Assembly: GCA_014695295.1 (NCBI GenBank)
Contig: JACJNY010000069.1
Span: 1-64,000, forward strand
Length of the DNA: 64,000 nt
Source: Microcoleus sp. FACHB-61
GTDB lineage: Bacteria; Cyanobacteriota; Cyanobacteriia; Cyanobacteriales; Microcoleaceae
Direction: 5' to 3'
Within the stretch, counting starts at the first letter, position 1. Every line of letters starts with the position of its first letter. This document shows positions 8,071 through 48,422 of the stretch, one piece after another. The notes under the pieces are model-generated. The model was not told where the DNA came from. It ran no database searches and was given only the letters and a program-made list of their open reading frames with translations. The translations under genes and the position numbers were made by a program.

Positions 8071-8289
8071 GCAATGCTTGAACTATTAGCAGGGGATGGG
8101 TTTTTTATTAAAACAGTGTGGCGATTTGTAAACAACATTGCCCTTCATACACTTTTTGCTAAAACGAGCTGATTCTTTACACAATCTTTAAAAAACCTGA
8201 CTGGACAGGTAGGGTGTACGGGGATATACTTAAAAAATTATATTCACTGAAGCGCCCCAGTAGTGAAAACACGAGGCTGTATTGTGGGT

Positions 8290-8295
8290 TATAAT
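8290..8295 (+). promoter_or_regulatory. Candidate -10 box of the TagA-type gene
   Basis: A perfect TATAAT lies 44 bp before the start codon of the 8339 gene, which also has a GGTGGAAGGG ribosome-binding-like sequence just upstream. No good -35 hexamer was found at 17 bp, so this is tentative. Confidence 0.4.
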
Positions 8296-8338
8296 AGTTT
8301 GAGTTGTAGTTTAATATAAAGGTGGAAGGGAATAATAC

Positions 8339-9133
8339 ATGAAAACAGTTAATTTATTGAATGTCTCGATAGATAACTTGTCAATAACAGAGTTGTTTGA
8401 AAAACTCGACTCCGAAGGTGGTGTCGTATTTACGCCAAATGTAGACCACTTGATTAAGTTGCAGTATGACCGCGACTTCTATGAAGCTTACAATAAATCT
8501 AGTTATAGAGTCTGCGACAGCCAAATATTGATGTATGCCTCCAAGTTTTTGGGTACTCCTATCAAAGAAAAAATTTCAGGTTCTGACTTGTTTCCTGCAT
8601 TTTATATGTATCACAAAGATAACGAGAACATGAAAATATTTTTGCTGGGAGCTGCTGAAGGTATTGCTAAGAAAGCCCAGGAAAAAATTAACCAAAAACT
8701 TGGTAGAGAAATAGTGGTTGAAGCACATTCTCCTTCTTTTGGCTTTGAAAAGAATGAGGAAGAGTGTGAAAAAATAATTGACGCGATCAATAAATCAGGA
8801 GCTACAGTTCTCGCAATAGGGGTGGGAGCCCCCAAGCAAGAGAAGTGGCTGGTTAAATACAAGAGCAAATTAACACACGTCAAAATTTTCTTAGCAGTAG
8901 GTGCAACCATTGATTTTGAAGCTGGTTGCAAAGCAAGATCTCCCAAATGGATGAGCGAAGTCGGCATAGAATGGGCGTACCGACTGTTAAGTGAACCGAG
9001 AAGGTTGTGGAAAAGATATTTGATAGAAGGTCTGCCTTTTTTCCGATTAATCTTAGAACAAAAATTAGGGTTTTATAAAAAGCCTTTCCTTGAGGGCAAA
9101 ACCAGGAAGCTAGAATGGGAAGGCGGTTCCTAA
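8339..9133 (+). CDS. WecG/TagA/CpsF-family glycosyltransferase (GT26)
   Basis: A 264-residue protein with the family landmarks: VFTPNVDHLIKL near residue 30, a VCDSQILMY block near 60, GSDLFPAF near 80, LLGAAEGIA near 100, and the highly conserved AIGVGAPKQEKWL near 160 followed by GATIDFEAG and ARSPKWMSEVGIEWAYRL. The family transfers N-acetylmannosaminuronic acid or a similar sugar to a lipid-linked acceptor at the membrane. Family length is about 240-260, so the gene is complete. It is preceded by a good ribosome-binding site (around 8322-8332) and closes the polysaccharide block that starts at 3702. The specific donor sugar is not determinable. Confidence 0.95.
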   Translation: MKTVNLLNVSIDNLSITELFEKLDSEGGVVFTPNVDHLIKLQYDRDFYEAYNKSSYRVCDSQILMYASKFLGTPIKEKISGSDLFPAFYMYHKDNENMKIFLLGAAEGIAKKAQEKINQKLGREIVVEAHSPSFGFEKNEEECEKIIDAINKSGATVLAIGVGAPKQEKWLVKYKSKLTHVKIFLAVGATIDFEAGCKARSPKWMSEVGIEWAYRLLSEPRRLWKRYLIEGLPFFRLILEQKLGFYKKPFLEGKTRKLEWEGGS

Positions 9134-27882: not shown

Positions 27883-28779
27883 TCAATTTTTCTTTAGCAA
27901 TTTTTTGAGCAACTTAGGAACCTCCGAAGGCCGAGCCGCCACAGGTATGTCCGCCTCTTCAAAGGCAGCCATTTTGTTTGGGGCTGTAACTCCAAAGGCT
28001 TTCTGGGCAGCAGCCCGAGAACTGATCAGGATGCCGGCGTGGCCCAAAGACGGCCCCTTGGGAGCGTAGCGGCCGGCCAGATAAGCAACTACCGGTTTAT
28101 CGATCGCCGAGGCAATGTAAGAAGCAGCAGCTTGTTCGCTCCACCCGCCAAATTCCCCCACCAAAACCATCGCTTCCGTACTGTCGTCTTCGTCCAAAAT
28201 TTGCAGCCACTGCATAAAAGAAGAACCGACAATCGCGTCGCAGCCAATACAAACCGCCATCGACTGCCCCAACCCCGCCTCAGTCAGTTCGAGGGCAATT
28301 TCGTAAGTCAAAGTGCTGCTGCGGCTGATCACGCCCACCGGGCCGGGAGTGTAGAATTCCGTAGGGTGAGTTCCCAGCAGCAGTTTGTCGGGCACAATAA
28401 TCCCCGGACTGTTGGGCCCGATTACCAAAGTTTCGGTGGCTTCTGCTTTTCTGACTAAGCGCACCATATCCAGAGGAGGCACTCCCCCAGTGACGATCGC
28501 GATTTGCCGAATTCCTCCCGCGATCGCTTCTAGAGCCGCATCCAGCACCGAGTAAGGGTCTACCAAAATTACCGCAGTGTCAACGTGACCCACTGCCGCC
28601 ACTGCTTGTTCTACCAAATCAAAAACCGGAATTCCCTCCACTTCCAGCCCCCCCCGACCGGGACTGACACCGGCGACTACATTCGTGCCGTATGCTTTCA
28701 TCATCAGGGCTGTGCGGGTTGACGCGGGAGATTCTGTAATGCCCTGTACTAGGACTTTGCTTTCAGGAGTTAAATTCAT
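27883..28779 (-). CDS. Succinate-CoA ligase alpha-subunit-like CoA-binding protein
   Basis: A 298-residue SucD-like protein. The CoA-binding Rossmann start is KVLVQGITESPASTRTALMM; GIRQIAIVTGGVPPLDM, IGPNSPGIIVP and the phospho-histidine loop SLGHAGILISS follow in the order known for SucD. The catalytic histidine in GHAG is present. Some canonical positions differ (Ser for Cys in GPNSPG, Ser for Gly in ISRSSTLTYE). With the SucC-like gene upstream on the same strand it should form an acyl-CoA ligase making succinyl-CoA or a related thioester. A TnpB element separates the two genes. Confidence 0.88.
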   Translation of the reverse strand: MNLTPESKVLVQGITESPASTRTALMMKAYGTNVVAGVSPGRGGLEVEGIPVFDLVEQAVAAVGHVDTAVILVDPYSVLDAALEAIAGGIRQIAIVTGGVPPLDMVRLVRKAEATETLVIGPNSPGIIVPDKLLLGTHPTEFYTPGPVGVISRSSTLTYEIALELTEAGLGQSMAVCIGCDAIVGSSFMQWLQILDEDDSTEAMVLVGEFGGWSEQAAASYIASAIDKPVVAYLAGRYAPKGPSLGHAGILISSRAAAQKAFGVTAPNKMAAFEEADIPVAARPSEVPKLLKKLLKKN

Positions 28780-28945: not shown

Positions 28946-28960
28946 CCCTCAAGCCGAGGG
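28946..28960 (-). ncRNA. TnpB right-end hairpin, likely part of the guide (omega/re) RNA scaffold
   Basis: On the minus strand CCCTC GGCTT GAGGG forms a hairpin that spans the tnpB stop codon. In IS200/IS605-type elements the guide RNA scaffold overlaps the 3' end of tnpB and ends at the element border, with the guide taken from flanking DNA. The exact end was not located. Confidence 0.5.
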
Positions 28961-30040
28961 TTCCCAGTTTAAAATATTCAAACTGGCATTCAAATCACGA
29001 TCTAAAGATATGCCACAAACAGGACAGTCAAAAGTCCTAATACTTAGTGGCATATCTTTTTTAGTGCCACAATTAGAACAGGTTTTAGAACTAGGGAACC
29101 ATTGATCGACTAGCACTAAAGTTGCTCCATACATTTTGCACTTGTAATCAAGTTGGCGCTTGAATTCGTAAAATCCTATATCGGATATTGCCCCAGCCAG
29201 TTTGTGATTCGCCATCATGCCTTTAACGTTTAAGTCTTCAATCTTGATTAGCTTGAAACTTTTAGCTAAATAAGTTGTTAACTTGTGAAGAAAATCTGAG
29301 CGAATGCAAGCTATCGGCGCGTGGATTCGAGTGATCTTATTATAGGTTTTGCATTGGTTTTGGGAACCTTTTACCTGTTTTGATGCTTGGCGCTGCCAAG
29401 TAGCAAGTTTGGTTTTCGCTTGCTTCAACGGTTTTGGTGCATCAAAAACCTGTTGGTTTGACAGCGTGGCCGCATATTTGATACCTACGTCAATTCCTAC
29501 AGAGCTTTCAGGCTGTCGAACTGGTAAACGTTCTGCATCAATGCAAAAGGAAACAAACCAGCGACTTCCTTTTTTTGAAATAGTAAAAGTTTGAGAGACG
29601 AAGCCGCATTCTAGGGCTTCGTAGAGTCGAAAAGTTCCCAATGTAGGAATTTTAATGGTGTTGCCAGCGCTTAGCAGAACTTTCCCGTTAGATGAGTCAA
29701 CCGTAAAAGACTGACCGTTTCGGCGACTAGCGAATGTCGGATGACCTGCTTTTCCAGAGCGATACCGACTAAAAGCATCTTTTAAGTCAATCAAAGCATT
29801 TTGATAAACTCGACTAGACAACTGGTTCATCCAACCGAATTCAGGCTGTTTCTTGACGTGGTTGGTAAGAACTTTTTTGACTTCGTTGAGTACCTTCGAG
29901 TCTGAAAGATTTCCCTCGCTATACATTTGAGTCCGCAGGCTTAATCCAAAATTAAATACTACGCGCCGAAATCCTGCGTGTTTTGCCATCAAAGTCGCTT
30001 CGTTGTTATTTAATTTTAGCGCTCGTTTAATGGCAAACAT
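28949..30040 (-). CDS. tnpB: TnpB RNA-guided nuclease of an IS200/IS605-type element
   Basis: A compact 363-residue TnpB. The RuvC-like catalytic residues are visible: D184 in VGIDVGIKYA, E268 in IKIEDLNVKGM and the acidic DRDLNASLNI near 347-349. The zinc finger is intact, with C321/C324 (CSNCG) and C339/C342 (CPVCG). No frameshift is seen, so the protein may be active. No tnpA accompanies it, so it is an IS1341-like solitary element mobilised in trans. It lies between the SucC-like and SucD-like genes on the same strand, about 100 bp from the former. Confidence 0.93.
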   Translation of the reverse strand: MFAIKRALKLNNNEATLMAKHAGFRRVVFNFGLSLRTQMYSEGNLSDSKVLNEVKKVLTNHVKKQPEFGWMNQLSSRVYQNALIDLKDAFSRYRSGKAGHPTFASRRNGQSFTVDSSNGKVLLSAGNTIKIPTLGTFRLYEALECGFVSQTFTISKKGSRWFVSFCIDAERLPVRQPESSVGIDVGIKYAATLSNQQVFDAPKPLKQAKTKLATWQRQASKQVKGSQNQCKTYNKITRIHAPIACIRSDFLHKLTTYLAKSFKLIKIEDLNVKGMMANHKLAGAISDIGFYEFKRQLDYKCKMYGATLVLVDQWFPSSKTCSNCGTKKDMPLSIRTFDCPVCGISLDRDLNASLNILNWEPSA

Positions 30041-30140: not shown

Positions 30141-31376
30141 CTACTTGGCGGAGGATACAGAGGTGGCCGCAGCCTCATCCAAAGTGCTAGCTAGCTGCAC
30201 CGGCAACTGTCCCAAACGCTTTTTAACAGCATCAGCATCGATCTCTACCAGGCGCAGCACAACTTGGATGTGGCGGTTGGCGCGAGCTTTCCGTTCCAAA
30301 TACCCGGCTACTGCAGCCGTGATTTCCTCGCTCTTGGAGGCGCTGCCCAAAATATTTACCAGTATCACCTTAACGTTTTTATCCTGAGCGACTAACTCCA
30401 GACCCAACTCCGCGCGATCGCGCAGGGCATTTGCTGCATCGTAGCGGTCTAGGGAACCAATATTCACAAAATTAGCTGGTTTTCCTCCTTGGTGGGTTAC
30501 AGCATCCAGAGTTGCCATTGTCAGGCCCACTCCGTTGCACAAAATCCCGATATTCCCGTCTAGTTCGATTAATTGCAGGGATTCGGAATTCGAGATTGGG
30601 GATTGAGATTTGGGGTCAAACTCCGGCGGTGGCGAGTGCTGCACCTTCGAGTTGAAATTAAGGCGATCGCCGGGGGCATGGGGACTTCTCCTTTCCCGTG
30701 CCCACCCGCTGCTTTGCCTATTCCCCGAGAGTGCGGCCAAATCTGGATGCCGCCCCAAGGCCTCGTCGTTGGCGGTGACTTTACCGTCTAAAGCCATTAC
30801 CTCTCCCGTTGGGCTGATGCCGAGAGGATTGATTTCTACTAAATCTAAATCTTTTTCGACAAACAGCCGGTACATTTTCTCGACAATGGTGCTCACGGAT
30901 TGAATCAAGTCTCCCTGCAATCCCATTTTCAGCGTGAGACGCCTCGCGTAGAATGGGGAAAATTCCTGGTCTACGGCAACTTGCTGCATTTGCTCGATCG
31001 ACCCTTCGACATCCATACCTCCTTGGCTCGAACCCAGAAGAACCGGGCGTCGCGCTACCGGGTCTAGGAGTACCGCTAAGTACAATTCTTGGTCGGCGTT
31101 GTACTTTGCTTCTGCCAGCAGGACTTGGGGATATTCACTCTCGATGGGCAAATTAAAAATTGTTTGGGCGGCAGCTACTGCATCGATCGTATTTTCCACA
31201 AACTTGATACCGCCCGCCCGGCCCCTTCCCCCAGCCCGCACTTGCGATTTGAGTACAACCGGGTAGGGAATTTTAAGTCCTTTGAGGTCGGCGGGATTGT
31301 CAATCCGCTGCGACGGCAAAATCGGAATTGCCATCTGGCGAAATAAAGATTTAGCTTGGTACTCTAACAAATCCAT
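30141..31376 (-). CDS. Succinate-CoA ligase beta-subunit-like ATP-grasp protein
   Basis: A 411-residue SucC-like protein. The ATP-grasp start (MDLLEYQAKSLFRQMAIP, VVLKSQVRAGGRGRAGGIKF) and the metal-site LVEINPLGI are clear. The C-terminal CoA-ligase domain begins at IGILCNGVGLTMATLD and includes FVNIGSLDRYDAAN and VILVNILGS. Residues about 218-266 form a repeat-like, Pro/Ser/Arg-rich insert between the two domains that is absent from typical SucC. The enzyme would use ATP or GTP with the SucD-like subunit to interconvert succinyl-CoA and succinate in the open cyanobacterial TCA cycle, or use a related acid. Confidence 0.88.
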   Translation of the reverse strand: MDLLEYQAKSLFRQMAIPILPSQRIDNPADLKGLKIPYPVVLKSQVRAGGRGRAGGIKFVENTIDAVAAAQTIFNLPIESEYPQVLLAEAKYNADQELYLAVLLDPVARRPVLLGSSQGGMDVEGSIEQMQQVAVDQEFSPFYARRLTLKMGLQGDLIQSVSTIVEKMYRLFVEKDLDLVEINPLGISPTGEVMALDGKVTANDEALGRHPDLAALSGNRQSSGWARERRSPHAPGDRLNFNSKVQHSPPPEFDPKSQSPISNSESLQLIELDGNIGILCNGVGLTMATLDAVTHQGGKPANFVNIGSLDRYDAANALRDRAELGLELVAQDKNVKVILVNILGSASKSEEITAAVAGYLERKARANRHIQVVLRLVEIDADAVKKRLGQLPVQLASTLDEAAATSVSSAK

Positions 31377-41410: not shown

Positions 41411-41421
41411 AGTTATTTCAA

Positions 41422-41513
41422 GGAAGAAGGAAGAAGGAAGAAGGAAGAAGGAAGAAGGAAGAAGGAAGAAGGAAGAAGGAAGAAGGAAGAGGGAAGAAGG
41501 AAGAGGGAAGAAG
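41422..41513. repeat. GGAAGAA heptanucleotide tandem array, about 13 units
   Basis: Starts 11 bp before the metF-like start codon and runs about 92 bp with a few GAGGGAA variants near the end. Length is probably variable between strains because of slippage. Confidence 0.95.
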
Positions 41514-41540
41514 GCAACGGATCGATATAACGGATGTAAA
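41501..41540. repeat. Partial copy of the dispersed GGCAACGGAT/AACGGATG family
   Basis: AAGAAGGCAACGGATCGATA and then TAACGGATGTAAAAGA resemble the copies at 26497-26558 and 56961-57001. It abuts the heptamer array. Confidence 0.6.
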
Positions 41541-42871: not shown

Positions 42872-43987
42872 TTACCAATCTGTCAGCAACCTTGCTTTGC
42901 GCAACACAAATTTCAGAACAGTTTCTTGGCCGGTAATAATATCGGCTCGGCCCTCCATTCCCGATTGAATGGGATACTGGCGGGGGACGTTGGCTTGGGG
43001 GGCTTTCAAGAATTGGCCGCTGGCAGATTCGAGTTTTGTTAAATAAGTTTGTTCGGGCTTAATTGCTACTTCGTAATAAGCTGTACCTAAATTATTAGTG
43101 GGATTTTGAGTGGCGATCGCATCTGGGGCGATTTCGCTGACGGTTCCTTTTAATGTGCCGTAGTCGGGGAAAGGCAAAGCCGAAATCCTGATCTGTACGG
43201 GTTGGCCGATTTGGATGCGAGCGATATCTTGGGATGTCACCTTGGCTTTGACTACCAGGGGTACGTCGCTGGGGACGATTTGGGCGATCGCGCTGCCGGC
43301 TTGTACGGTTTGACCAGTATTTCGTACTTCCAACCTGAGAATTGTACCATCAGCGGGCGCGCGGATCACGCTATTTTCGAGTTTTAACTCAAGTTGATTT
43401 AGTTCTTTTTTAGCTTGAATGAATTGTTGTTGAAGAGACGATCGCTTGACGAGCAAAACCCGCCGACTTCTGCCCAGCCTTTCGGCGACATCTGGCAGCG
43501 ATGTGGCAAATTTTACTAAAGCGGATTCGATTAATTCCTGTTGGGCGGAAGTTTCACTTTGGATGCTTTTAAATTGGGCGCTGGCCAAAATTTGATTTTC
43601 TAAGTCGCGCAGTTGCTGCTTGATTTGCTGTCCTGCTGTTTGAGACTGATTAATTATTTCTTGTAACTGCTTTTTTTGAGCGCCCAAACGCGAAGCGTCT
43701 ACAACTGCGATCGCATCTCCTTCTTTTACTGTCTGATTCTCGCTGACAGCAATGCTTTCGACGGTTCCTTCGGTGGCTGCTTGCACGACGCGCACTTCTC
43801 CCGCCGGACGGACGATCGCCTCTGCTTTGACTGTAGCGCTGTATTTGGTGACGCTAGCGAGGGCGATCGCCCCGCCAAAGGTCGCCACCATCAAAATGCC
43901 CCCCAAAGTCGTCCAGCGGCTGACAGGGGGCAAAAACTGGTCGTTATCAAAAATTTCAGCGGGTATGGGTTCGGGAGTGAGAGACAT
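42872..43987 (-). CDS. HlyD-family membrane fusion protein of the bacteriocin-type export locus
   Basis: A 371-residue HlyD/MFP adaptor. One transmembrane helix is at about residues 27-49. A biotinyl-lipoyl-like half-domain (VVQAATEGTVESIAVSENQTVKEGDAIAVV) is followed by a coiled-coil hairpin over about residues 105-200 and then the second half-lipoyl IRAPADGTILRLEVRNTGQTV. The C-terminal beta-barrel region continues to the end. It would bridge the inner-membrane transporter to an outer-membrane channel. It is divergent from two double-glycine precursor genes and a C39-ABC transporter, so it probably serves them. A TolC-like gene is not adjacent. Confidence 0.93.
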   Translation of the reverse strand: MSLTPEPIPAEIFDNDQFLPPVSRWTTLGGILMVATFGGAIALASVTKYSATVKAEAIVRPAGEVRVVQAATEGTVESIAVSENQTVKEGDAIAVVDASRLGAQKKQLQEIINQSQTAGQQIKQQLRDLENQILASAQFKSIQSETSAQQELIESALVKFATSLPDVAERLGRSRRVLLVKRSSLQQQFIQAKKELNQLELKLENSVIRAPADGTILRLEVRNTGQTVQAGSAIAQIVPSDVPLVVKAKVTSQDIARIQIGQPVQIRISALPFPDYGTLKGTVSEIAPDAIATQNPTNNLGTAYYEVAIKPEQTYLTKLESASGQFLKAPQANVPRQYPIQSGMEGRADIITGQETVLKFVLRKARLLTDW

Positions 43988-44333
43988 GGCGACTGCTGGG
44001 GGAGAGGGGAATAGTTTTGATTTGAGTTTTGAGTTTTGAGTTGGGGGAGAGGGAGAGATCGATCGCTTATTTCTTTTGTCACCTTTACGATCGGCTTTCC
44101 GGAAACCAAGAATAGGTTTAGAAGTCTAAATCAAAATTCACAGGGTAAATGTAAAAATCCGCACAGCTTTGCCGTTACCACCCGCAAACTTCGCCAAACA
44201 TCAAGAGGAGTGAAGTCAGCGGGCAACACTTATAAAAATATGGCGTTTCAGCAATGAGTTTTGGCGCTGTTACCGGGTTTTTCATGTATGCGTAGGTAGT
44301 AAGTAAGTACATAGGTATTAATAGGAGCTCTTT
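43988..44333. promoter_or_regulatory. Divergent promoter region of the bacteriocin-type locus
   Basis: 346 bp between the hlyD gene and the first precursor gene, the likely site of divergent promoters. A clear ribosome-binding site, AGGAG at 44323-44327, lies 6 bp before the ATG at 44334. A short repeat GTAGGTAGTAAGTAAGTA lies just before it (44292-44309). No operator or -35/-10 pair was assigned. Confidence 0.5.
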
Positions 44334-44561
44334 ATGTCAGAAAATCAACAAGATTCACTCTTCACCGAACTAACCGATCGAGAATCTGCTACTGTCAGCG
44401 GTGGCAGCATTACCAGCAGTGTCAGCGGCGCTAACAGCAACAGCGAGACCGATAACAGCAGCAGCTATGGCATCAATCTGCTGTTTTTCTTGCCGCCGCC
44501 TAGCCAGCTTTATCTGTACGATCCGAGCCGCCATCGCCCTTACAAAACCCTAGTGGTTTAG
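44334..44561 (+). CDS. Double-glycine-leader peptide, putative bacteriocin precursor 1
   Basis: A 75-residue small protein. The leader (residues 1-24) ends in SLFTELTDRESATVSGG: hydrophobic residues spaced before a double glycine, the pattern cut by C39 peptidases. The predicted core (25-75) is Ser/Asn-rich at first (SITSSVSGANSNSETDNSSS) and then hydrophobic and Pro/Tyr-rich (YGINLLFFLPPPSQLYLYD, ending RHRPYKTLVV). It has no Cys, so it cannot be a lanthipeptide or disulfide-linked. The ribosome-binding site is strong. The C39-ABC transporter gene is 478 bp downstream and hlyD is divergent. The leader matches that of the 57-aa gene at 44731. The function of the core is unknown; an antimicrobial or signalling peptide is plausible. 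Confidence 0.85.
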   Translation: MSENQQDSLFTELTDRESATVSGGSITSSVSGANSNSETDNSSSYGINLLFFLPPPSQLYLYDPSRHRPYKTLVV

Positions 44562-44668
44562 ATCGCTGAGTCAGGTTGTGCGATCGGGTAAATTTTGAAA
44601 ATTTATCCGTAATATTCCGGAGGTCGCCGAGGACTACAAGAAGTATTTGTCAGTATTTACACGAGGCT

Positions 44669-44692
44669 CTAGAAATTAGATAAGATTTCTAG
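44669..44692. repeat. 8-bp inverted repeat between the two precursor genes
   Basis: CTAGAAAT (44669-44676) and ATTTCTAG (44685-44692), exact complements with an 8-base spacer, 39 bp before the second precursor start. A possible operator or small RNA stem. Confidence 0.55.
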
Positions 44693-44730
44693 TTTGCCTT
44701 CAATTTTATTAAGTTAAACCGAGTCAAATT

Positions 44731-44904
44731 ATGAAAGAAACAAAGGACAATTCACTGTTTGCTGAACTCACCGCTGAAGAATCAGCTAGCGTCAACGGCG
44801 GTCACTATTATTCTAATCGATACAACTGTTACCGTCCGAGGCGTCACGTCGTGTACCGCCGGGATTTCGACGGCTCCTTAAGAGTAGTGTACCGCTACTG
44901 GTAA
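44731..44904 (+). CDS. Double-glycine-leader peptide, putative bacteriocin precursor 2 (57 aa)
   Basis: A 57-codon gene. The leader (residues 1-24) contains SLFAELTAEESASVNGG, nearly the same as that of the 44334 gene (SLF.ELT..ESA.V.GG). The predicted 33-residue core after GG is very unusual: rich in Tyr and Arg (HYYSNRYNCYRPRRHVVYRR, ending in RVVYRYW), with one Cys. The core would be strongly cationic and aromatic, a profile common in membrane-active peptides. The stop is followed by an intrinsic-terminator-like hairpin (44946-44973), which marks the end of a precursor transcript. No strong ribosome-binding site precedes the ATG. The shared leader is the main evidence that it is real. Confidence 0.85.
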   Translation: MKETKDNSLFAELTAEESASVNGGHYYSNRYNCYRPRRHVVYRRDFDGSLRVVYRYW

Positions 44905-44945
44905 GTTTTAGTGCTGTCAATTGAGCTCGCTCGATACGAATAAAT

Positions 44946-44973
44946 AAAGCACCCATAAGTTTATGGGTGCTTT
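44946..44973 (+). terminator. Terminator-like hairpin after the precursor genes
   Basis: AAAGCACCCATAA (44946-44958) and TTATGGGTGCTTT (44961-44973) pair exactly. It lies 41 bp after the second precursor stop and 66 bp before the transporter start, so partial readthrough could set the peptide-to-transporter ratio. The T run after it is short (TTT then G). Confidence 0.75.
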
Positions 44974-45038
44974 GTTCTGATGGGGTAGTCGGTGAGGGGT
45001 AATGTTCATTAGGCTCTACTCATTATTCATTGTGCCAA

Positions 45039-47249
45039 ATGTTAAAGAACATTCCTTCTATCCGAGAAATGCCTTTCTTCGGACAAGTAAACAGGTTGAT
45101 GAAATATCAGGTTGTTCTCCAGCAGAGCGAAGAAGATTGCGGTGCGGCTTGTCTGGCTTCGATCGCCAAATTTTACGGACAGAACTTTACAATTAGCCGC
45201 TTGCGAGAATTTGTCGGCACTGGCCAACAAGGAACGACTTTACTGGGCTTGAAACAAGGAGCTGAGGCGATCGGCTTTAATGCTCGTTCCGTGCGAGCAG
45301 CGGCTGCTATTTTAGACCAAATTGAGGAAGCGCCTTTACCGGCAATTATTCACTGGAACGGCTATCACTGGGTTGTTTTGTACGGGAAACAGGGCAACAA
45401 ATATGCGATCGGCGATCCGGCCGTCGGTATACGCTATGTTTCTAAAGCAGAATTAGCAGCAGCTTGGACAGATTGGCTGTGCTTGCTAGTAGAACCCGAT
45501 GCGGAGCGGTTTTTTGCGGCAGCAGAGGGTCAACCGCCTGCCAATTCCTCACAAAAATGGATGCGCAGGATTGGGATTTACCGCCCGATTTTAATGGAAG
45601 CATTTTTGCTGAATGTGGTGTTGGGTTTGCTGTCGATTTCTTCACCTTTTCTAGTTCAACTTCTCACCGACGACATCCTGGTGCGGGGCGACAGACAACT
45701 CCTGGCGAGTGTGGCGATCGCAGTTATAGTCATGAACCTTTTTAGCAGCAGTTTAGGATTGGTACAGTCGAACTTAATTGCTCAATTTTCCCAGCGTTTA
45801 GAGTTGGGATTAGTGATGGAGTTCGCCCGGAAATTCCTGCGATTGCCTTTGAATTTTTACGAAACCAGACGAAGTGGCGAAATCGTCAGTAGATTACAAG
45901 ATATCCAAGAAATCAATAAATTAGTTTCTCAAGTCGCTATCAGCTTGCCCAGTCAATTTTTTATAGCTGTAGTTTCTTTTATTTTTATGCTATTTTACAG
46001 CAAGGAACTGACGCTGGCAGCTACAGCTATAGCTCTGTTAATGACTGCCTCTACAGTGGTATTTCTGCCCGTATTGCAGCACAAAACGCGCAGTTTATTG
46101 GTGCTGGAAGCAGAAACTCAAGGCGTTTTAGTAGAAACTTTTAAAGGCGCGCTGACTGTCAAAACTACTAGCAGCGGTCAGCAACTTTGGGAAGAATTTC
46201 AAAGCCGCTTTGGCCGATTAGCAACTCTCACTTTCCGCACGACACAAATTGGCATTCTCAACAATATATTTTCTGGTTTTGTTGCCTCGGCGGGTAGCAT
46301 TACTCTGCTGTGGTTGGGTAGCGGTTTAGTGATTGACAAGGTATTGAGTATAGGTCAGTTGCTAGCTTTTATCAGCATGAATCAAAACGTTACTACTTGG
46401 GTAAATTCCCTAGTAGGATTTACTGATGAGATGACTCGCGTTCAGACAGCAACTCAACGGCTGTCGGAAGTCATCGACGCTGAACCGGAAACTAAAGACG
46501 ATATGAATAAACCTTTCGTAAAAATTCAGAATCCCGACAATATTATTTGTAAGGCAGTGAATTTTCATTATCCGGGCAGACTTGATTTGCTGGAAAATTT
46601 TTCTGTCACGTTTCCCGGCGGTCAAGCAATTGCTTTGATCGGCTATTCCGGCTGCGGAAAAAGTACGCTAGCAAAAGTAATTGCTGGTCTGTATCCGGTG
46701 CAATCTGGTAATATTAGAATTGGCGGTTACAACTTGCAGGATTTGTCTCTAGACAGTCTCAGACAGCAGGTGGTTTTGGTTCCCCAAGAAGCGCATTTTT
46801 GGAGTCGTTCGATTCTCGAAAATTTTCGTTTGGGCAGTCCCGATATCAGCTTTGAACAGATTGTGAAAGCGTGTAAAATTGCGGGGGCGGATGAATTTAT
46901 TAGCCAATTGCCTGATAAATATCAAACAATTTTAGGGGAGTTTGGAGCGAATATTTCTGGCGGACAAAGACAGAGATTGGCGATCGCCCGCGCCATTCTC
47001 AACAACCCGCCCGTATTGATTCTAGACGAATCTACCGCAGGGCTTGACCCCGCAAGCGAAGCGGAAGTTTTAGAACGATTGTTGATGTACCGGCACGGGA
47101 AAACGACGATTTTTATCAGTCACAGGCCGCGAGTGATCGATCGCGCCGATTGGATTATCATGTTAGAACGCGGCAGGTTGAAATTGCAAGGGTCTGCTGC
47201 AAAATTGCGATCGATTCCAGGAGACCATTTAGAGTTTTTGCATCCTTGA
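45039..47249 (+). CDS. Peptidase-containing ABC transporter (C39 peptidase, TMD, NBD) for double-glycine peptides
   Basis: A PCAT of 736 residues. The N-terminal C39 peptidase has the catalytic Cys in EEDCGAACL (C34), His in GYHWVV (H110) and Asp in IGDP (D126), so it should cleave leaders after GG. The ABC transmembrane domain (about 165-460) contains six helices. The nucleotide-binding domain has Walker A GYSGCGKST (about 534-542), the ABC signature ISGGQRQR (about 638), Walker B VLILDEST and the H-loop ISHRP (about 692). The frame can start at TTG 45030, but the ATG at 45039 (MLKNIPSIREMPFF) is better. Its only likely clients nearby are the two double-glycine peptides just upstream. Confidence 0.95.
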   Translation: MLKNIPSIREMPFFGQVNRLMKYQVVLQQSEEDCGAACLASIAKFYGQNFTISRLREFVGTGQQGTTLLGLKQGAEAIGFNARSVRAAAAILDQIEEAPLPAIIHWNGYHWVVLYGKQGNKYAIGDPAVGIRYVSKAELAAAWTDWLCLLVEPDAERFFAAAEGQPPANSSQKWMRRIGIYRPILMEAFLLNVVLGLLSISSPFLVQLLTDDILVRGDRQLLASVAIAVIVMNLFSSSLGLVQSNLIAQFSQRLELGLVMEFARKFLRLPLNFYETRRSGEIVSRLQDIQEINKLVSQVAISLPSQFFIAVVSFIFMLFYSKELTLAATAIALLMTASTVVFLPVLQHKTRSLLVLEAETQGVLVETFKGALTVKTTSSGQQLWEEFQSRFGRLATLTFRTTQIGILNNIFSGFVASAGSITLLWLGSGLVIDKVLSIGQLLAFISMNQNVTTWVNSLVGFTDEMTRVQTATQRLSEVIDAEPETKDDMNKPFVKIQNPDNIICKAVNFHYPGRLDLLENFSVTFPGGQAIALIGYSGCGKSTLAKVIAGLYPVQSGNIRIGGYNLQDLSLDSLRQQVVLVPQEAHFWSRSILENFRLGSPDISFEQIVKACKIAGADEFISQLPDKYQTILGEFGANISGGQRQRLAIARAILNNPPVLILDESTAGLDPASEAEVLERLLMYRHGKTTIFISHRPRVIDRADWIIMLERGRLKLQGSAAKLRSIPGDHLEFLHP

Positions 47250-47378: not shown

Positions 47379-48422
47379 TCATTCCTCCTCAATTTCAATT
47401 TCTACTGCCTCTAACTCAGCTTCCAACTGCTCAACAGTCGGCAAACTTCCCTGTAACTGCTCCGGCAAAGCCTCCCGCAATTGATAAGTCGAAACGCCGA
47501 TCGGTTTATTCATATCCCGCAAAGCATATTCGACAATCTTCTGCTTTTTATTTTTACATAAAATCATCCCAATAGTCGGCAGATCATCCCGGTGTTTCAG
47601 CAAATCATCTACCGCCGAAACGTAAAAACTCATCTTTCCAGAAAACTCTGGCTTAAACACTTCCACCTTCAAATCTATTACCACAAAACACCGTAAACGT
47701 AAATGATAAAACAATAAATCAATATAAAAATCTTCCCCTTCAACTTCCAGATGATACTGACTGCCCACAAAAGCAAACCCCACCCCCAACTCTAGCAAAA
47801 AATCGCGGATGCGATCTATTAAAGCCTTCTCTAATTCTCTCTCTTGTGCTTCCTTGCCTAAACTGATAAAATCAAAATTATAAGGGTCTTTCAACAACTG
47901 CTGCGCCAGTTCAGATTGCGGGTTGGGGAGAGTGCGAGAGAAGTTCGTATCAGCTTTCCCTTGTCGCCGATACAGCCCGCTTTCTATCTGATGAACTAAC
48001 ACATTTCGACTCCATCCTTGCTCGATAGTTTGTCGTGCATACCACAGGCGTTCCTCTGACGATTTCAGCTTTTCCATTAAGGCGATATTGTGATACCAAG
48101 GAATTTGTGCAAGCACCTCTTGCACAAATTGTTCATCCGGGTAAGTTTCCGCAAAACTTCTCATATACTTGAGATTGCGAGGTGAAAAACCCTTCATCTC
48201 AGGAAAAGCTTTTTGCAAGTCAGCAGCTAAATTGTCTATAATTTTTGCTCCCCATCCTCGCTGCTGTTGTCGGTTTAAAATATCCCGTCCAATTTGCCAG
48301 TAAAGCAACACTAATTCGCGGTTAACAGAAATTACAGCCCGCACTTGAGCTTGCAAAATACGTCCCTTAAGTTCCTGGAGAAAATCATGATAATCTTCTG
48401 GCATTGATAAGTTATTCGCCAT
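47379..48422 (-). CDS. YhcG/DUF1016-type PD-(D/E)XK nuclease-domain protein
   Basis: A 347-residue protein with the two YhcG parts. The N-terminal DUF1016-like domain is helical (VISVNRELVLLYWQIGRDIL, MKGFSPRNLKYMRSFAETYP). The C-terminal nuclease domain has FYIDLLFYHLRLRCFVVIDLKV, where the PD-(D/E)XK acidic residues appear as ID and DLK, and FKPEFSGKMSFYVSAVDD. Family members often have ELK at this position; DLK here should still bind metal. YhcG proteins occur near mobile and restriction genes and have a proposed role in DNA recombination or defence. It is convergent with the C39 transporter gene. Confidence 0.9.
   Translation of the reverse strand: MANNLSMPEDYHDFLQELKGRILQAQVRAVISVNRELVLLYWQIGRDILNRQQQRGWGAKIIDNLAADLQKAFPEMKGFSPRNLKYMRSFAETYPDEQFVQEVLAQIPWYHNIALMEKLKSSEERLWYARQTIEQGWSRNVLVHQIESGLYRRQGKADTNFSRTLPNPQSELAQQLLKDPYNFDFISLGKEAQERELEKALIDRIRDFLLELGVGFAFVGSQYHLEVEGEDFYIDLLFYHLRLRCFVVIDLKVEVFKPEFSGKMSFYVSAVDDLLKHRDDLPTIGMILCKNKKQKIVEYALRDMNKPIGVSTYQLREALPEQLQGSLPTVEQLEAELEAVEIEIEEE

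Follow-up and report, generated by a model that had tools for sequence, protein, structure and literature searches.

Many cyanobacterial loci that join small double-glycine (GG) precursors to a C39 peptidase-containing ATP-binding cassette (ABC) exporter (PCAT) are labelled bacteriocin clusters, and their products are unknown. The survey of such clusters by Wang, Fewer & Sivonen in 2011 emphasises the diversity of the cores and how little they are conserved (PMC3140520). Among cyanobacterial systems built in this way we found just one whose function has been tested, EbfG1-4 and PteB of Synechococcus elongatus PCC 7942, where the role shown by experiment is in the biofilm matrix: EbfG1-4 are exported by PteB and needed for biofilm formation, EbfG1-3 form amyloid, and EbfG4 is located both on the cell surface and within the matrix (PMC4997328, PMC9981879). 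Here we describe a locus of this kind at positions 42872–47249 of a 64,000-nt stretch of DNA from Microcoleus sp. FACHB-61 (contig JACJNY010000069.1), referred to below as the window. It comprises hlyD, two precursor genes (pepA and pepB) and a PCAT gene (Table 1). With moderate confidence we read it as a dedicated secretion unit in which one exporter serves two small-protein substrates, whose cores would be conserved structural or adhesive components of the cell surface or matrix.

Comparison with described systems

The locus resembles group III of the 2011 survey in combining hlyD, a short-type C39-ABC exporter and several double-glycine precursors within a few kb, and likewise has no LanM, second ABC transporter, SurA or S8 protease (PMC3140520). 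By gene architecture it is a group III cluster, an assignment based on gene content. It departs from the survey in that both of its cores are conserved throughout the genus. S. elongatus has one group III cluster (PMC3140520), of which we infer PteB to be the exporter. Compared by description, the EbfG1-4/PteB system and the window locus both have several small GG-leader proteins and a C39 peptidase transporter; in S. elongatus the leader is cleaved and the cores are found outside the cell. Amyloid formation by EbfG1-3 is a feature of the S. elongatus system. A search of the cyanobacterial literature for tyrosine-rich or sheath GG proteins returned nothing relevant apart from EbfG.

Two further transporters bear comparison. 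PCAT1 of Clostridium thermocellum (PDB 4ry2, 8vp3) is homologous to the window PCAT over its full length (377 bits), with identical domain order and C39 triad, but it is a Gram-positive exporter that works without an HlyD partner. HetC, a Nostoc PCAT that is required in heterocyst differentiation, likewise combines a C39 peptidase with an ABC exporter in a filamentous cyanobacterium, but carries an extra N-terminal cyclic-nucleotide-binding domain and has neither a GG precursor nor a membrane-fusion protein nearby (PMC10986499).

Table 1. Genes and hairpin of the locus, in window coordinates
Feature	Position	Strand	Description
hlyD	42872..43987	-	Membrane-fusion adaptor of the HlyD family (371 aa), in divergent orientation to pepA/pepB
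pepA precursor	44334..44561	+	75 aa; leader 1-24 (MSENQQDSLFTELTDRESATVSGG), core 51 aa
pepB precursor	44731..44904	+	57 aa; leader 1-24 (MKETKDNSLFAELTAEESASVNGG), core 33 aa
Perfect hairpin	44944..44975		AAAGCACCCATA-AGTT-TATGGGTGCTTT; between pepB and PCAT
PCAT	45030..47249	+	Short-type C39 peptidase-containing ABC exporter: C39, transmembrane region, ATPase

Two conserved precursors with a common leader

Every open reading frame (ORF) of at least 25 aa between hlyD and PCAT was checked in 21 relatives and, flanking-gene ends aside, those left intact were pepA (21/21) and pepB (20/21). Since these are the only ORFs retained in the scan, and their ratios of nonsynonymous to synonymous substitution (dN/dS) are well under 1, pepA and pepB are real genes. 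A ribosome-binding-like AGGAG can be read upstream of pepA. The two precursors have in common the leader pattern SLFxELTxxESAxVxGG, which the original prediction for this stretch had pointed out, and the likeness is borne out by a model built from pepB relatives, which retrieves the pepA of this genome at E 2.6e-5 with all other matches at E > 0.2. By this search the genome holds two precursors with the shared leader, pepA and pepB; the next-best leader-like match (L155) lies inside an acetolactate-synthase-like gene and was rejected as a chance hit. Neither precursor matched a Pfam, NCBIfam or PHROGs family above its cut-off.

Conservation was followed in 30 genomes of the genus, the window genome and 29 further ones. 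PCAT, pepA and pepB are each retained in 29 of the 30, with one pepB a pseudogene, and the single genome that has neither precursor is just 74% complete. The gene order metF-trpS-hlyD-pepA-pepB-PCAT-cimA is held across most of the genus, which points to vertical inheritance. For pepA, dN/dS is 0.255 in the leader and 0.354 in the core (confidence interval (CI) 0.23–0.51); for pepB the values are 0.269 and 0.321 (CI 0.21–0.48), and for PCAT the ratio is 0.095. Both cores are thus under purifying selection nearly as strong as that on the leaders. The pseudogene is that of M. vaginatus HSN003 (L035 / L074), where pepB has two stops and its GG has become DG; hlyD, pepA and PCAT are intact there, and this strain's PCAT shares 95% identity with the window PCAT. 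In relatives core B occurs in tandem, duplicated up to three times and showing some drift; in one case the two copies are identical.

These results bear on the main rival explanation, that pepA and pepB encode unmodified class II-type (microcin-like) bacteriocins whose cores, singly or jointly, inhibit competitors. Bacteriocins are classically exported by way of double-glycine leaders, a C39-PCAT and HlyD (PMC3140520), and the leader of pepA-type precursors weakly resembles the CTB family bacteriocin model NF038167: window pepA scores 16.6 bits over the leader, under the cut-off of 32 for membership, the best E among 16 members is 2e-4, and window pepB has no match. Intraspecific weapons usually vary, however, and these cores are near-universal in the genus and under purifying selection. 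Nor is there an immunity-like third ORF, since no third conserved ORF was found between hlyD and PCAT or just downstream in the 21 relatives. The bacteriocin label in cyanobacteria moreover rests on architecture, and the one tested set, EbfG, is a biofilm factor (PMC4997328). The original prediction's term bacteriocin-type therefore finds no support as a description of function, and we consider an antimicrobial pair unlikely, if the foremost of the alternatives.

Export machinery and the absence of a linked modifying enzyme

The arrangement given in the original prediction, an HlyD adaptor, two small genes and a transporter, is present as described. Pfam identifies Peptidase_C39, ABC_membrane and ABC_tran in that order in the transporter, and the N-terminal C39 domain, with its Cys-His-Asp triad intact and joined in one chain to the membrane and ATPase domains of an ABC transporter, makes it a PCAT. 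Alignment to the solved transporter PCAT1 confirmed the triad reported earlier as C34/H110/D126, a numbering that is obtained from the alternative ATG at 45039; the longest frame begins with TTG at 45030. Three proteins of the genome match C39, and the window PCAT is the sole short-type C39-ABC exporter among them. A second match is a stand-alone membrane C39 protein with no ABC part (L002, G000:C31, ~49.1–50.1 kb), for which no linkage to any precursor was seen. The third is a long CAP_ED-type exporter in which direct reading gives DSPLAC where PCATs have DCGAAC; with Ser at the Cys position, the catalytic Cys appears lost.

The hlyD product matches HlyD_3 of Pfam at E 1e-21 and TIGR01843 with 159 bits, under the cut-off of 208.65, and trpS adjoins hlyD in relatives. 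A TolC-like protein that could serve as outer-membrane factor is encoded elsewhere in the genome. The complete processing and export system proposed originally is supported as an inner-membrane unit (C39-PCAT, HlyD and two GG precursors).

No modifying enzyme adjoins the locus, as had been noted at the outset. This bears on a second explanation, that the products are ribosomally synthesised and post-translationally modified peptides (RiPPs) whose Tyr-, Arg- and Cys-rich cores are altered before export by an unlinked enzyme. Such residues are common targets of modification, and prochlorosins have distant maturases (PMC3140520). Against this, the genome has no LanC-like domain (PF05147), and hence no LanM/LanC-like cyclase of the lanthipeptide type, and no enzyme next to the locus is found in the window or conserved across ~20 relatives; YcaO, radical SAM and ATP-grasp enzymes were not searched for genome-wide. 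We regard modification as improbable.

Properties of the cores

Core A, of 51 residues, has a variable start rich in Ser and Asn and a conserved end, LLFFLPxPSQLYLYDPxRxRPYKTLVV. Core B, of 33 residues, is 21% Tyr and 24% Arg and carries a charge of about +6. In the AlphaFold model its C-terminal part is predicted to form a β-hairpin from strands 39–44 and 50–56, with pLDDT of 80–89 over this block, and its N-terminal part is unstructured. Comparison of pepB with the PDB, by sequence and by fold, gave chance matches only. As the Cys count of core B ranges from 1 to 3, the possibility of a conserved disulfide was rejected.

The original prediction called the two cores unrelated. Profile comparison of core A with core B detected no homology, in agreement with that description. 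The C-terminal 20 residues of core A do, on the other hand, match a core of the sister genus (Kamptonema-type; 20 columns, P 4e-6), so that a distant relation is possible; the match is suggestive only, given the shortness and low diversity of both. Core B aligned to Kamptonema-type cores over 5 columns, which is no match.

The exporter clade beyond the genus

In the rest of the family a leader of the form LFTELTxEESAxxNGG/GA precedes other Tyr/Arg/Gly-rich cores beside orthologous exporters, and a search of the whole class found similar leaders with Tyr/Arg/Gly-rich cores in other orders too, for example GYGYGYGYRPVSYYRPYYRSYYRPVAYYY. The cores of other genera reach 43% Tyr and include low-complexity repeats of the GYGYGR type. 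In the exporter tree, one fully supported clade holds 35 members, of which 34 are linked to Tyr-rich cores; the lone exception is the HSN003 locus with its broken pepB. The Tyr-rich label requires 6 changes on this tree against 31.6 in shuffles, a clustering that partly reflects simple relatedness. Exporters of Nostocales are neighboured by cores of other kinds, several of them Gly-rich. As the leader pattern used to find precursors was tuned to this family, exporters scored as having no precursor may be missed cases. Leader and exporter are thus stable, and cores are conserved inside genera and replaced between them. The original prediction had suggested checking whether the leader is conserved and the cores vary; this holds between genera, with cores mostly Tyr-rich in one exporter clade, but not within the genus.

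A third explanation, that the cores are secreted signal peptides detected by conspecific filaments, can be judged against this wider record. C39-PCATs also export pheromones, the ComA class aligns with the window PCAT, the HetC requirement described above offers a precedent for a PCAT in differentiation, and short conserved cores would fit. No conserved receptor or regulator gene is present at the locus, however; core A has 51 aa, the tandem duplicates of core B (up to three) have drifted somewhat, and the low-complexity GY repeats of other genera are unlike signals. Like modification, signalling is less likely, and we give it little credence.

At another locus (L189, G253:C1), two precursors with a similar leader lie beside a PCAT at 8273–8729. 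Their cores are Cys/Arg/Trp-rich and strongly cationic and would be better antimicrobial candidates than those of pepA and pepB.

Proposed mechanism and role of the cores

From the domain identities, the intact triad and the known mechanism of PCATs, the events at the inner membrane can be set out as very probable. The pepA and pepB precursors would dock through their common leader on the PCAT's cytosolic C39 domain, whose cysteine protease would cleave behind GG; the ATPase would then push the two cores, of 51 and 33 aa, through PCAT and HlyD, with the TolC-like outer-membrane protein from elsewhere in the genome completing the channel. Supply of precursor may be set by the hairpin between pepB and PCAT, which occurs in 18 of the 22 loci from the genus with near-constant sequence and near-fixed spacing to PCAT. 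It is unique in the window, and shuffled sequences fold much less well than this region (z -3.8); a scan of the window against Rfam gave no match. The hairpin is a probable terminator or attenuator favouring precursor over PCAT transcript, and its conservation suggests that it would hold precursor messenger RNA in excess.

Outside the cell, the cores may well act as conserved structural or adhesive components of the surface or matrix, like EbfG1-4 in the biofilms of S. elongatus, and not as killing peptides that vary. Evolution, composition and analogy lend this view about as much weight as all other possibilities together. Secreted cell-surface, sheath or biofilm-matrix proteins are the most likely single role, and it is favoured because of genus-wide purifying selection, the lack of an immunity gene, the multiplied copies and the drift to low-complexity GY repeats in relatives.

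Several points weigh against this interpretation. The pepB pseudogene in M. vaginatus HSN003 means that pepB is dispensable there. The mature parts of EbfG1-4 are reported to lack homologues in other cyanobacteria (PMC4997328), so that the functional parallel is one of architecture only. AlphaFold predicts no fold for core A (pLDDT 53), and the predicted hairpin of core B, cationic, amphipathic and containing Tyr, Arg and Trp, would suit a membrane-active antimicrobial peptide, as the bacteriocin explanation has it. With regard to the supply of precursor, the T-tail of the RNA hairpin is weak on the plus strand.

More tentatively, the locus may belong to an unrecorded cyanobacterial family of Tyr-rich, PCAT-exported microproteins with which filamentous cyanobacteria would build, glue or cross-link their sheath or mat matrix, a family marked by a near-constant LFxELTxEESAxxNGG leader on Tyr/Arg/Gly-rich cores. 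If so, much of what is annotated in cyanobacteria as bacteriocin clusters would be matrix-protein secretion. The cluster architecture was already known; added here are two unnamed precursor families conserved throughout the genus and the link between an exporter clade and Tyr-rich cores. A compact locus, with one exporter and two substrates in the genome and conserved through a genus known from soil crusts and mats, offers a clean genetic test between the roles.

Neighbouring features

In one relative (L198, G013:C1:4306800-4326000), a stretch of about 15 kb resembling a cyanobactin cluster lies on the opposite strand between the pepB copies and PCAT (~1.4–15.7 kb). It encodes a PatA-like S8 protease, a PatD-like YcaO protein, two PatF-like proteins and a PatG-like protease, all named from sequence alone. 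In the window, a YhcG/DUF1016 PDDEXK nuclease gene (47379–48422, minus strand) adjoins the locus; it occurs at this site in few relatives only, which marks a variable insertion point. Farther away, a gene for a TnpB-type protein (OrfB_IS605, with a Cas12f1-like TNB domain; 28949–30040, minus strand) sits between an apparent succinyl-CoA ligase pair (27883–28779 and 30141–31376), and a short tandem repeat of the GAAGGAAGAAG type occupies 41418–41530, immediately upstream of a metF-like gene.

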